Positions 56,119-63,009 of a stretch of 64,000 nucleotides of DNA are shown piece by piece. The position numbers and the translations under genes are program-made. The DNA is from Methylocaldum marinum (GTDB taxonomy: Bacteria > Pseudomonadota > Gammaproteobacteria > Methylococcales > Methylococcaceae). Every line of letters begins with the position of its first letter. The first letter of the stretch is position 1. The DNA is taken from the NCBI RefSeq assembly GCF_003584645.1, contig NZ_AP017928.1, positions 4,068,395 to 4,132,394 on the forward strand, given 5' to 3'. The notes beneath the pieces were generated by a model. It saw nothing but the letters and a program-made list of their open reading frames with translations. It made no database searches and was not told where the DNA came from.

Positions 56119-56462
56119 CTTAAGGAAGCGCTGAATAAGCCCTCTCCCTCTGGAACAAATCGGCAGGGCGAGACGCAACGCGACGAGTGGGCAGGCCAAA
56201 GATGGGCTGCCCCGGACGCGCGAGCGAAGCGGGACAGCGTCGCGTGGCGAGGCCGATTGACTCGCCTCATCCCTGAGGCTCGCCCTTCGGGCCGTGCTTC
56301 GCACGTTCCCGTTCGCTCCCGGCGAACGGGTGCACGCGTGAGCGCCGCTTGCGGCTCCGCACAGGGAATGTGCGGAGTGACTGGGTTGGGTGAGGGCCTG
56401 TTAGATCAATCCGTTGCACAGGTTGCTTCTCCGAAGTGGAGACTTAATCAGAGCTTCCTTAA
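56119..56462. mobile_element. MITE-like element with terminal inverted repeats
   Basis: The left end CTTAAGGAAGCGCTGAATAAG (56119-56139) and the right end CTTAATCAGAGCTTCCTTAA (56443-56462) are inverted copies matching at 18 of 20 positions, enclosing about 300 bases without a transposase. The inside is GC-rich with several hairpins. A fragment of the same type is at 34474-34534. The right end overlaps the stop codon of the neighbouring minus-strand gene. I see no clear target-site duplication. Confidence 0.6.
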
Positions 56463-57901
56463 CGGGGTCCCGCTTTGCCCTCAACCGGTTGCGGCCGAGC
56501 CCGCGGCGTTCTCCGGCGCAGGATTTCGGTCAGGCTTTCGGCGGTCCGGAAGCCCGACAGGGGGATGCCCTGAGCCACAAAGGACGGCGCCTCCTCGAAG
56601 CCGAGTTCGAGCGCCTCGGCCGTGTCCCTTGCGATTGCCTCGCCGATCTCCCTCGAGGAAAGACACTGGAAGAAATCGGCCCGATCGATCCCCAGCCTGG
56701 CGGCGAGCGAGGACAAGGCATGGCCTTCGTACCAGACCTCGCCGAAGGCCGGGGGATTCCGTGTCAGAAGCTCGCTGCGCATACGCTGAAAGGCGCCCAG
56801 CCGGTCGGCGCAGCGGGACACGCGGGCCGCTTCGCCGGCTACCGGATCGTACACCGGGATGAAGTCGCGGAAGATCACGCGCACGTTTCCATCGGTGGCC
56901 AGCAGCCGGTCGATTTCGCGGTGGGTCTGCCGGCAAGGCGCGCAGCGGTAATTGGTGTAGACGACGATACGCAATTCGCCCGCTCCACCCAATGCGGGAG
57001 CATTCGCCTCGGTCATGGGCAGACGGGGCGGAGGGGGTTCCTCGAACAGGATTTCGATGCGGGCAGAGGCGCGCAGGCTTTCGACAAATGTCGTGCGGCG
57101 GGCGTGAGCTTTGCGGAAAGACAGGTATTGGCGGGCGCGTTCGGGGTCCGATACCGGCCGGCCGGCCGCGCGTTCCGCCTCGATGAAGGCATGCAATTCC
57201 TCATCGCCGACCGTCGTGTCCCCCGTAATTTGTTTCAGTAGAACTTCAGCAGCGACGCCGCGTCGCCGCGCCTCCCGGCCGAGCAGACGATGCTCGATGA
57301 GCGTCTCCGCATTGCGCCGGCGTTCGAGATGAATTTCCTTTCGCAGCCGATAAAAGTGAAGCGCCGCGGCTTGCTCGAGCGCGTCGGCCGGGATCGGGAC
57401 ATCGTCCACCCAAGCCACGGTTCGTTGCGGAGGTAGCGGCTGTTCGAGCTCCCCGCTTTCCGGAAGCAGGATTTTGACGGCATGGCCTTTCCCGAGATCG
57501 CGGCGGGCTTCGGCTTCCGCAGTCGCCCGCGCTTTCTGCTCCAGATAGTGGCGAATCGCGGGGTCCTCCGCGGACGGGTTCCGCCGGGTCTCGACAGGTG
57601 CGAAGGGGCCCTCGAAATCTTCCGCCCGTGAGGATCGAAAGGCGCGTACTGCTTCGTTGGTGGCCGGCTCGGGCGAAGACGGCTTCGTTTCGGGCGAGGA
57701 GGCCCGAAGGCGGCGATCGATCAGGCGGTCCAGCGTTCGGCCTGCCTGATCGGCCAGAGCCTTGTGCAATCGGTCGATCTTCGGGCGCGAAAGCGCATCG
57801 ATCTCGGATAAGGAAACGCTCTCGCCGCTGATTCTTAGCGCCGCCTGGTCGGCGAAAGCGGCCGGACTCATCGCCAAGAACATCAGAAGAACGATCCACA
57901 T
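56459..57901 (-). CDS. SurA-like chaperone / DsbA-like thioredoxin fusion, exported
   Basis: A 480-residue secreted protein. A signal peptide (MWIVLLMFLAMSPAAFA) is followed by two stretches that look like SurA/PpiC N-terminal modules: 'LRISGESVSLSEIDAL...RTLDRLIDRRLRAS' and 'AWVDDVPIPADALEQAAALHFYRLRKEIHLERRRNAETLIEHRLLGREARRRG'. From about residue 315 comes a DsbA-type thioredoxin domain with the active site YRCAPCRQTH (CAPC) and a likely cis-proline in EEAPSFVAQG. It probably helps folding and disulfide formation of periplasmic proteins. It is last of a three-gene operon, and its stop codon lies inside the MITE-like element, so the original C-terminus may be altered. Confidence 0.8.
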   Translation of the reverse strand: MWIVLLMFLAMSPAAFADQAALRISGESVSLSEIDALSRPKIDRLHKALADQAGRTLDRLIDRRLRASSPETKPSSPEPATNEAVRAFRSSRAEDFEGPFAPVETRRNPSAEDPAIRHYLEQKARATAEAEARRDLGKGHAVKILLPESGELEQPLPPQRTVAWVDDVPIPADALEQAAALHFYRLRKEIHLERRRNAETLIEHRLLGREARRRGVAAEVLLKQITGDTTVGDEELHAFIEAERAAGRPVSDPERARQYLSFRKAHARRTTFVESLRASARIEILFEEPPPPRLPMTEANAPALGGAGELRIVVYTNYRCAPCRQTHREIDRLLATDGNVRVIFRDFIPVYDPVAGEAARVSRCADRLGAFQRMRSELLTRNPPAFGEVWYEGHALSSLAARLGIDRADFFQCLSSREIGEAIARDTAEALELGFEEAPSFVAQGIPLSGFRTAESLTEILRRRTPRARPQPVEGKAGPR

Positions 57902-57910
57902 TGCACGGTA

Positions 57911-58525
57911 TTATCGAACCGGTTCGCCGGGCTTCGCCGGATGCACTTCCTCGATGGGATCGCCGTCGAGTCCCCTCAGAAAATCCGAGAAACCGATGCC
58001 GAGTTCTTCGCGCAAAAGACGATCCGATTCCACCAGGACCAGTGTGCGCGCCAGGTGGTCACGCAGTGAATCCGGATCGCCGGGATCGAGAAATTCCGGC
58101 CGCAGCCCCACGGATGCCTCGCGCAGCCGCCGCAGGCCATCGAGCAAGCGTGTCATTCGCTCGGGGCTGAGCCTTTGGCCCAAACGCTGTTCCACCTCGC
58201 GTTCGAGCGCGCTGCTGACCAGGGTATCCCATTGCGCTTGGCGCATGGGATCGAACTCTGTATCGGGAGGGGGCGGCGGCATAGGAGTTCTTGGCGAGGA
58301 GGCCGGACCGGATGGCTCTTGGCCCGGAGCGGCCGGGGTTTTATCCTGACGGGGCGAGGCCGGCGCCGGCCTCGCCCGCAACATCGCAAGCTCCCGTTCC
58401 GCCTTCTGCGCGCGTGCCCGCCAAAGTTCGGTCTCGTCGTCGACCGATACCTGCGGCGAACGGCCGAACAGAAGCGCCGCCGCCGCGATCCCTGCACCCG
58501 ATAAGAAGGCGGCGATCCGGCTCAT
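57911..58525 (-). CDS. Exported or membrane-anchored protein, unknown
   Basis: A 204-residue protein with an N-terminal hydrophobic segment (AAFLSGAGIAAAALLF), a short coiled coil (ELWRARAQKAERELAMLRAR), a proline-rich linker (about 53-92) and a helical C-terminal domain ('MRQAQWDTLVSSALEREVEQRLGQRLSPERMTRLLDGLRRLREASVGLRPEFLD'). No family is recognised. It sits between the SGNH hydrolase (6-base gap) and the SurA/DsbA fusion (9-base gap), so the three act as one unit in the periplasm. Confidence 0.75.
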   Translation of the reverse strand: MSRIAAFLSGAGIAAAALLFGRSPQVSVDDETELWRARAQKAERELAMLRARPAPASPRQDKTPAAPGQEPSGPASSPRTPMPPPPPDTEFDPMRQAQWDTLVSSALEREVEQRLGQRLSPERMTRLLDGLRRLREASVGLRPEFLDPGDPDSLRDHLARTLVLVESDRLLREELGIGFSDFLRGLDGDPIEEVHPAKPGEPVR

Positions 58526-58531
58526 GAGGAT

Positions 58532-59416
58532 TTAGTCGAGCTCCTGGTGTTGCTTGAACGGACCGCTATTCCAAGTCTCTCTCGAAAGGGCCTTCTGCCC
58601 TTCCCAGGAACTATGAAAGCAGTCGAGGTTGGAGAGCTCGCTCTGCGTAAAACGATAGGTGAAGCTCGCGTCGGTAAAGGTGATGAACTTGTCCTGGTTC
58701 TGCGCGGCCTTATTCTCGGTAACCTCGCGGAGGATCCGGTTATACGCAACGATGCGGGATAACACGAAGGCCCGATCCGCGTCGGTTGCCTGCGGCGAGA
58801 GCACCGAGCCGCAGTTGCCGGATCTCGCCCAAACGTCCGGGCAATCGACCAAGCCCAGCGCCTGCTTGACCCGACCCTGGTTATACACCTCGATGATGTT
58901 GGGGATGGCCACCACCTGCACGGTAGCGCCCGCAGCCAGGTTCGTCAGCAAGGTATCCAGGCCGCCCTCGAAGCGCTCCCTGAACTGCCCATCGGTCGGC
59001 AAATCGGCGACGGAGTCCCGACAGGCATCGTTCGAACCCAGCAGCACGGTGGCGTAAGTCACGTTCTTGCCGGCCGCACCAGAAGCCTGGGACGTTAAAT
59101 CGCCCATCTCGGCACCGTTTTCGGCCGCCGTTTGATTACTGCGATGGCTATCGCCGAAGTTGGCGTCGATACGCTGGTTGTGCGATTCGACGTCGGGCAA
59201 GCCGAAAAGGTCCTCCCAAAAGCCGTGATAGCCGTTCACCCAGCTCAGGTGCGGATTGTCCAGTGGCGTATTCGCATTAAATCCCCGCGTCATGGAATCG
59301 CCCGTCGAAAAGAGCCGTTTCGGTTCGCTTTGGCCCGGCTCCAGGGCGAGTGCGGAGCGTACTACGAGGAACGCCGTCAATAGGGTTCCTGTTGCGGACA
59401 GACGATGCGTTCTCAT
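58532..59416 (-). CDS. Secreted SGNH/GDSL-type hydrolase
   Basis: A 294-residue exported esterase- or lipase-like protein. A signal peptide (LLTAFLVVRSALA) precedes block I FSTGDSMTRGF with the catalytic Ser; block III is VLLGSNDACRD with the Asn; the C-terminal NLDCFHSSWEGQ gives the Asp-x-x-His pair. The start at 59416 (MRTHRLSATG) is chosen for its AAGGGA ribosome binding site; the open frame begins 16 codons earlier. First gene of a three-gene operon. Substrate unknown. Confidence 0.85.
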   Translation of the reverse strand: MRTHRLSATGTLLTAFLVVRSALALEPGQSEPKRLFSTGDSMTRGFNANTPLDNPHLSWVNGYHGFWEDLFGLPDVESHNQRIDANFGDSHRSNQTAAENGAEMGDLTSQASGAAGKNVTYATVLLGSNDACRDSVADLPTDGQFRERFEGGLDTLLTNLAAGATVQVVAIPNIIEVYNQGRVKQALGLVDCPDVWARSGNCGSVLSPQATDADRAFVLSRIVAYNRILREVTENKAAQNQDKFITFTDASFTYRFTQSELSNLDCFHSSWEGQKALSRETWNSGPFKQHQELD

Positions 59417-59747
59417 TGCGATTCCCTTTGCGCAGCGATTCCTAAGTGACTCATGAACCGCCAAGAAAGTTCATGAGTGCTGGCCCGGTCCGAGCTTATT
59501 GCTTCCATTCTTTTCTGCTGTTTCGATAAGGCTCAAATACCCATCCTCCACCCTACAAAAAAGGAATGCCTTATCGAAAGCGATTTGGAAGAAGGCCGAT
59601 GAACAATTTTGCGCAGTAACCCGAATGGAAGCAAAAGGCGCATAGTTCGACCTCCGCGCGATTCGGTTTCTTGTCCGATTACGGCGACGAGCTTGCCAAC
59701 GAGACGCTGGGCCTTGCGTAGACCACCCTGATCGCTGAACCAGGAGT

Positions 59748-62556: not shown

Positions 62557-63009
62557 TTATTCAGCCTTACATATGCCCGGACAATCGGCGCCGCCTTTGG
62601 CGGGGTCGCAGTCGTCGTTGGGATCGTCGACACAGACCTGGCCATCGGGGCACTGGAGGCCTGCTATCCCGCCGCAGGCTACGGGTTCGGTTTTCACGCA
62701 CTCGCCCTCGTGGTCGATGGATACGCCTGCGGCAGCCGCTTCGCAGGCATTGCCATAGGTTTTTCCGTCGCAACCGCAGACCGGTTTGAATTCTCTGGTA
62801 CAGGCGTCGGGTTTGGCTTTGCATATGCCCTGTGCATCCGCGACCTTGCATTGGCCGACGCCAAGGTCACAGTATTGCCCTTCCGGGCAGGTTAACCCGC
62901 GGATAGTACCGCAGATGGTTTCCGGAGATTCGGGCTGAGTCTCGCGATCACAGCCGGACAGGAGAACAACCAGGGAAAGATAAACCATCAATATGATGTG
63001 CCTTTTCAT
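62557..63009 (-). CDS. Kazal-type protease-inhibitor lipoprotein
   Basis: A 150-residue lipoprotein with signal peptide and lipobox VLLSGC (Cys about residue 20). The mature part has a Kazal domain, CTREFKPVCGCDGKTYGNAC followed by 15 residues and GEC, the classical serine-protease-inhibitor pattern. It is flanked by two similar cysteine-rich units: ICGTIRGLTCPEGQYC before, and ACGGIAGLQCPDGQVC after. A GGAG ribosome binding site precedes the ATG. It may protect the cell surface from proteases of predators or hosts; that is inference. Confidence 0.88.
   Translation of the reverse strand: MKRHIILMVYLSLVVLLSGCDRETQPESPETICGTIRGLTCPEGQYCDLGVGQCKVADAQGICKAKPDACTREFKPVCGCDGKTYGNACEAAAAGVSIDHEGECVKTEPVACGGIAGLQCPDGQVCVDDPNDDCDPAKGGADCPGICKAE

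Follow-up and report, generated by a model that had tools for sequence, protein, structure and literature searches.

A candidate folding and export unit for an SGNH hydrolase in Methylocaldum marinum

Composition of the operon

In this work, a row of three genes was analysed in Methylocaldum marinum (assembly GCF_003584645.1), in a stretch of 64,000 nucleotides (contig NZ_AP017928.1, positions 4,068,395 to 4,132,394 of the forward strand). This whole stretch is called the window below, and positions are counted from its first letter. The contig is the whole genome of 6.09 Mb in one piece. A preliminary description had placed at 56459-59416 an operon that encodes a secreted SGNH hydrolase, an exported coiled-coil protein of unknown family and a fusion in which SurA-like modules precede a DsbA-type domain, and had read it as a possible private folding unit for the hydrolase. 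The three open reading frames (ORFs) were found as described. All are complete and lie on the minus strand in a tight row, with 6 bp between the hydrolase (58532-59416) and the middle protein (57911-58525) and 9 bp between the middle protein and the fusion (56459-57901). Across all four genomes that carry the trio, the gaps are 2-9 bp. Judged by this spacing alone, the genes would be co-transcribed; a promoter scan at the operon gave 0 hits vs 0.5 in shuffles, and a terminator scan gave 2 vs 4.1. The ratio of nonsynonymous to synonymous substitution rates (dN/dS) against three relatives was 0.10-0.18 for the hydrolase, 0.21-0.33 for the middle protein and 0.24-0.29 for the fusion. All three genes are under purifying selection, and the trio is therefore not a chance assembly. 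The features are as follows:

58532..59416, minus strand: gene 1, exported SGNH/GDSL hydrolase, 294 residues from ATG (Lipase_GDSL 6.4e-11; profile A6 match to 5w78)
59342..59416, minus strand: residues 1-25 of the hydrolase, a predicted signal peptide (from the sequence and a hydropathy maximum of 1.52 at residue 7)
57911..58525, minus strand: gene 2, exported or membrane-anchored protein, 204 residues, no known family (family searches; orthologues in three other genomes)
58460..58516, minus strand: hydrophobic stretch at about residues 4-22 of gene 2, either a signal anchor or a signal peptide (19-residue hydropathy peak 1.69 at residue 4)
57968..58249, minus strand: conserved helical C-terminal domain of gene 2, residues 93-186 (conservation; model helices 93-186)
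56459..57901, minus strand: gene 3, exported chaperone-thioredoxin fusion, 480 residues (domain matches, alignment, model)
57428..57850, minus strand: first SurA-like module of gene 3, residues 18-158, divergent copy (hhalign to 13 single-module relatives: 120 columns, 72.4%, E 3.3e-5)
57008..57430, minus strand: second SurA-like module of gene 3, residues 158-298 (hhalign to the same 13 relatives: 136 columns, 98.9%, E 2.1e-17)
56507..57004, minus strand: DsbA/ScsC-type thioredoxin domain of gene 3, residues 300-465, with a presumed cis-Pro loop EEAPSF (Thioredoxin_4, DSBA, 3gyk)
56933..56944, minus strand: CAPC active-site motif, C320-C323 of gene 3 (translation)

The hydrolase

The SGNH label of the preliminary description was borne out, as Lipase_GDSL matched gene 1 with 43.2 bits against a cut-off of 23.6. 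An alternative TTG start at 59464 would lengthen the protein by 16 residues. G39-D40-S41, N129-D130, D265 and H268, which form the GDS, GxND and DxxH blocks, are invariant in nine proteobacterial rows. From what is known of the SGNH family, we take S41 (in GDS), N129, D265 and H268 to be the catalytic residues. The nearest solved structure found with profile A6 was acyloxyacyl hydrolase (5w78, 2.3e-9). This profile was built from six hydrolase sequences, those of genome G322 and of Nonomuraea among them. The Nonomuraea gerenzanensis hydrolase (L060:5977-6822) is of the same family, is 27.7% identical and lacks two of the four cysteines treated below. Acyloxyacyl hydrolase deacylates lipopolysaccharide, and its hallmark is a saposin-like small subunit beside the SGNH domain. 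Profile positions 31-180 align with it, and the NDxC block is common to both, but the bacterial window protein shows in its 294 residues the SGNH domain alone, without a second domain. Judged by its sequence, gene 1 is thus a relative of acyloxyacyl hydrolase and not a member of that group. The phospholipase B-like SGNH enzymes are presumably a further likeness.

Two cysteines of the hydrolase had been singled out earlier. Both are conserved, in a set that numbers four: C132, C192, C202 and C266 are kept in 10 of 10 aligned proteobacterial rows, the weak G845 match being left out. Four further cysteines are common to the five distant gammaproteobacterial hydrolases. The actinobacterial Nonomuraea row retains C132 and C202 and has lost both C192 and C266, and this joint loss in a single sequence suggests the disulfide pairs C132-C202 and C192-C266. 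C266 has the presumed catalytic residues D265 and H268 on either side.

The middle protein

The gene 2 product has a hydrophobic start, a helix at residues 28-50, a Pro/Ala-rich linker and a helical C-terminal domain. Its predicted model is helical and of low confidence (mean pLDDT, the predicted local distance difference test score, 57.3). The absence of a known family, as given in the preliminary description, held in our searches: no Pfam or NCBIfam family matched at E≤1, no PHROGs family matched at E≤0.01, and the search of solved structures gave nothing beyond a best E of 4.4. The protein had also been called exported, and on this point it may be membrane-anchored rather than released. Its hydropathy peak is 1.69, against 1.52 and 1.63 for the signal peptides of its neighbours, and hydropathy alone does not discriminate an anchor from a signal peptide. 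The Pfam lipase chaperone family did not match at E≤1, so the protein is not placed among the Lif chaperones. By fold, it matched just assorted helical proteins (Z up to 7.0), and no meaning was attached to BiP and DnaK among them.

The chaperone-thioredoxin fusion

The DsbA-type assignment of gene 3 was confirmed by Thioredoxin_4 (53.8 bits, cut-off 23.2; 3.5e-14), which covers residues 311-461, by DSBA (32.2 bits, cut-off 25.6; 1.2e-7), which matches best at 395-450, and by the CXXC motif. The thioredoxin domain is closest in sequence to 3gyk (6.6e-13), and ScsC structures are also among the profile matches. The SurA-like label finds support in the relatives of the protein and, weakly, in its model; on the window protein itself, no SurA model matched at E≤1, and the N-terminal 300 residues gave no family match. 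The RIB43A match to this part (0.17) was taken as chance. In the 18-row alignment A5, SurA_N_3 matched 10 of the 18 members at E≤1 (best 1.9e-5). This alignment holds the four orthologues, the G322 fusion and 13 of 25 single-module ORFs, which were drawn from 29 loci after four loci had been left out by a motif filter.

The structure prediction proposed in the preliminary description gave a poor model (two-sequence alignment, mean pLDDT 44.1, with 67-86 in residues 191-280 alone). Its four best structure rows were nevertheless SurA, a SurA fragment, PpiD and SurA, with Z of 8.0, 7.8, 6.8 and 6.4, and the next stood at 4.9. Z values of 6.4-8.0 can reflect a common arrangement, more so for helical proteins. 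When the two N-terminal halves were compared directly, BLASTP gave E 1.8 and hhalign a probability of 7.7%. Each half matches the same outside family, however, which points to a duplication, and we read the N-terminal part as two tandem SurA-like modules, of which the first has diverged. Gene 3 may resemble SurA and PpiD in its N-terminal chaperone fold (Z 8.0 to 1m5y on the weak model) and in the SurA_N_3 matches of its relatives, but it has no peptidyl-prolyl isomerase family in Pfam at E≤1, and a thioredoxin domain follows instead.

Co-occurrence in the family and order

The preliminary description had proposed co-occurrence as a check, and the trio passed it. Of 38 family genomes, the window's own included, the same four (G000, G005, G007, G023) have each of hydrolase, middle protein and two-module fusion, and no trio member was found in the remaining 34; two of these, G006 and G027, have a thioredoxin-domain match alone. 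The order-wide search of 201 genomes covered the hydrolase and the middle protein. Both proteins were found there in the same four genomes, and a profile search returned no further relative of the middle protein. These four genomes are not independent, because the three Methylocaldum-type loci are syntenic.

Distant hydrolase and fusion pairs

Profile A6 found hydrolases in G322, itself a row of the profile, and in G504, G561 and G625 among 145 genomes of the order of G322, and in G704, G650 and G845 among 369 class genomes (four with the window's own). The surroundings of all seven distant loci were read. A related fusion lies near the hydrolase in all five genomes where the match exceeds 190 bits. 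In three of them the genes are convergent, at 118 bp in G322, 53 bp in G625 and 15 bp in G704; in G504 the distance is 0.9 kb with one ORF between, and in G561 it is 6.1 kb with several genes between. The five genomes cover four families, G322 and G625 being of the same genus. By a rough hand estimate, with 20 thioredoxin genes per 3.5 Mb genome, fewer than 1 in 10 genomes would have one inside a given stretch of about 14 kb, and the pairing in five of five is therefore not chance. Thus, the co-occurrence check extends to a related hydrolase and fusion within 6.1 kb in five more genomes.

Among 326 class genomes, the five-fusion profile A9 gave an end-to-end match in G704 alone, whose fusion is one of its own rows; in 36 further genomes the match was confined to the surroundings of the thioredoxin domain. 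In G845 a thioredoxin match lies on another contig than the hydrolase. Three class relatives with CPHC (L090, L093 and L098; open frames of 338-375 residues, one of them in G845) form a starred clade of their own in the thioredoxin tree. When the tree was constrained to hold the window-type and the distant fusions together, the likelihood was 1.62 higher (p-AU, the approximately unbiased test, 0.569), so this grouping is not rejected. L111 was left out of the tree, and the topology comparison was also made without the long branches L012 and L074.

GspC-like fusions and type II secretion

The five distant fusions are 511-563 residues long from the chosen starts, and four have, judged by eye, a lipoprotein-like start. 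A shortened counterpart of the second SurA-like module is followed by the thioredoxin domain and then by a GspC-like C-terminal half. They are located at:

L059:6328-7878: thioredoxin-GspC fusion
L068:2776-4353: thioredoxin-GspC fusion
L070:5228-6919: thioredoxin-GspC fusion
L071:9038-10573: thioredoxin-GspC fusion
L074:10946-12487: thioredoxin-GspC fusion

The GspC model NF041515 matched all five (9.2e-8 to 6.4e-21), under its curated cut-off of 150 bits. TIGR01713 matched them at 3.2e-7 to 4.6e-4, and in one at 1.6e-8, likewise under the cut-off. T2SSC matched four of the five, two over its cut-off (5.4e-8 and 3.4e-13) and two under it (0.0014 and 0.00078). By these profile matches, the distant fusions end in the periplasmic half of GspC, with its homology region and a PDZ domain. 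They differ from GspC itself in that this part sits behind a thioredoxin domain and that a separate T2SSC match occurs in the same genomes; the window fusion has no such part. Separate T2SSC matches were found elsewhere in the genomes of all five distant pairs and in G000, G007 and G005 (below the cut-off). The middle protein had no match to the GspC-type fusions in a profile comparison (probability 0.7%).

The GspC homology region has reportedly been solved together with secretin domains (PMC3169554), and according to the title of a reference in PMC7949064, the specificity of the type II secretion system (T2SS) is determined by the PDZ domain of OutC. A literature search over open PMC titles and abstracts returned no paper on a thioredoxin-GspC fusion or on this operon. 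In G704, a GspA-type ATPase, GspB (T2SSB 4.7e-13) and the fusion follow each other on the same strand (L071:9038-13525), with the hydrolase convergent. From its domain matches, this row is a T2SS accessory row with a thioredoxin-fold member.

Neighbouring genes

A flavin mononucleotide (FMN)-binding protein is encoded upstream of the trio and, convergently, a SWIM-domain protein downstream, beside what we take to be a helicase-like gene. A mobile origin of the trio was considered and rejected: no PHROGs match was obtained at E≤0.01, and among plasmids the single hit was a distant hydrolase on a replicon of 11.8 Mb that bears the label plasmid, with no fusion found in the 12.8 kb around it. An ORF at 62557-63009 (minus strand) encodes a cysteine-rich, lipoprotein-like protein with a stretch that we presume to be Kazal-like, and its synteny is kept in two relatives. 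It is possibly a further disulfide client near the operon.

Interpretation

We consider the chances somewhat better than even that the operon serves specifically to fold and export its own hydrolase. The reading of the preliminary description is partly supported. By analogy, it is most likely a dedicated unit for a disulfide-bonded exoenzyme that would work like the lipase/foldase and CpaA/CpaB pairs, and type II secretion is the likely exit route. Membrane-anchored chaperones encoded beside their partners are described as a recognised class for T2SS substrates (PMC4713064; PMC7542363). Harding et al. characterise them by an adjacent gene, an N-terminal transmembrane segment, a periplasmic C-terminal region and a requirement for secretion of the partner (PMC4713064). 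Gene 2 shows the adjacency, as it starts 6 bp after gene 1, the presumed effector. Lipases and CpaA are described as folding ahead of their export by T2SS and as having dedicated chaperones, and Lif serves a disulfide-bonded lipase that exits by T2SS (PMC3352829; PMC7542363; PMC4713064). The window unit resembles LipB/Lif-LipA and the Acinetobacter pair CpaB-CpaA in that an exported hydrolase has next to it the gene of a protein whose N-terminal segment is hydrophobic and for which a periplasmic domain is predicted. It differs from them by a second partner with SurA-like and thioredoxin parts, and gene 2 lacks a lipase chaperone match.

We hypothesize the following order of events. The hydrolase would pass the inner membrane via its signal peptide, and the middle protein, probably anchored in the membrane, would hold the emerging chain together with the SurA-like modules of the fusion. 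The CAPC thioredoxin domain would then make or correct two disulfides, probably C132-C202 and C192-C266, the latter of which would pin the loop carrying the presumed catalytic D265 and H268. The other gammaproteobacteria would have these functions in one piece: there, the chaperone/thioredoxin protein would also bear a GspC-like homology region with a PDZ domain, with which the T2SS touches the secretin and the substrate.

Several results weigh against this reading. Housekeeping DsbA and SurA might suffice for the hydrolase. None of the five distant loci carries a relative of the middle protein, profile A9 gave no match in G000 at 1e-15, gene 3 shows no T2SSC homology region at E≤1, and the free thioredoxin tree does not join the window-type and GspC-type fusions, while a constraint placing the window kind with the single-module fusions is not rejected either (p-AU 0.314). 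In G650 and G845, where the hydrolase match is weak (92 bits, and 24 bits on a contig of 5.6 kb), no fusion adjoins it, and no thioredoxin fusion was found in the 12.8 kb around the Nonomuraea hydrolase, itself a row of A6. T2SSC gave no match in G023 (72% complete), nor in G650.

The strongest alternative is that the fusion is an ordinary periplasmic isomerase of the SurA/ScsC type with a broad range of clients, its linkage to the hydrolase reflecting shared regulation and not dedication. We regard this as rather unlikely, although the phylum-wide data lend it weight and count further against a dedicated unit. A profile of the four fusion sequences found matches in 145 of 299 phylum genomes, many to the thioredoxin domain alone, and in at least 29 loci of 29 genomes the match begins at residue 152-195 and runs to the end. 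The latter consist of one N-terminal module and thioredoxin, mostly in proteins of about 340 residues, whereas the hydrolase profile matched in only 2 of the 299 genomes (G322 and the window's own). Thus, SurA-thioredoxin fusions are common in the phylum sample without this hydrolase, and the fusion type is not new as such. Moreover, trimeric ScsC isomerases with N-terminal helical domains are described (PMC8900818). Gene 3 shares with the ScsC, Com1-like and alpha-DsbA2 isomerases a Thioredoxin_4-type domain, CXXC and an N-terminal helical extension (3gyk, 7rgv, 4xvw). In these, however, the extension is a short trimerisation helix, against two SurA-like modules of about 135-140 residues each in gene 3, and the operon partners are others. 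On the other hand, the two-module fusion occurs in the family only with the hydrolase (both in four genomes, neither in 34), and the linkage recurs in four other families. What is unusual here is the second module, the strict partnership with the hydrolase in the family and the recurrent linkage, which includes the thioredoxin-GspC form.

Another possibility is that the unit combines a chaperone and an export adaptor, in which the thioredoxin fold binds its client without redox work and the essential parts are the SurA-like modules together with the GspC-like part or, alternatively, the middle protein. The thioredoxin site reads SPHC, SRHC or SRPC in all five GspC-type fusions, with the first CXXC cysteine lost. 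Redox catalysis may therefore not be the shared function. This loss also counts against the dedicated unit as described above and makes it harder to see the whole set as simple oxidases; together with the GspC homology it favours such an adaptor. However, CAPC or CTPC is intact in all four orthologous window-type fusions, and the GspC type might have a redox pair of its own. Two cysteines, C125 and C132 in the numbering of the first row, are invariant in its five members, the one standing seven positions before the remaining active-site cysteine. They possibly form a shifted redox pair. We consider a redox-free adaptor unlikely. It is very improbable that the trio are merely neighbours by descent in one small clade, with no joint function and chance pairings elsewhere: the confinement of hydrolase and middle protein to 4 of 201 order genomes and the synteny of the three Methylocaldum-type loci would fit this, but in gammaproteobacteria each of the five strong hydrolase matches has a fusion no more than 6.1 kb away, in four families, and both partners are rare in the samples.

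The dedicated folding and export unit can tentatively, and with less than even odds, be taken further, to a fold-and-export line that serves one class of exoenzyme. In the distant genomes, one polypeptide would combine a SurA-like holder, a site with the thioredoxin fold and an adaptor made of the GspC-like homology region and PDZ domain, and in Methylocaldum the two-module SurA-DsbA fusion would act with its probably anchored partner, so that oxidative folding would be directly coupled to hand-over to the type II secretin. If this is true, the lost first cysteine of the one-piece form would mean that a former redox site has turned into a client reader, which passes only the properly bonded enzyme. 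The recruitment of folded substrates by the T2SS has been called elusive (PMC7949064). A thioredoxin-fold protein with a GspC-like half near a single cysteine-rich exoenzyme would offer a compact system for probing the physical coupling of folding and export. In Methylocaldum, the hydrolase would be a testable client for an otherwise anonymous chaperone-oxidoreductase fusion.

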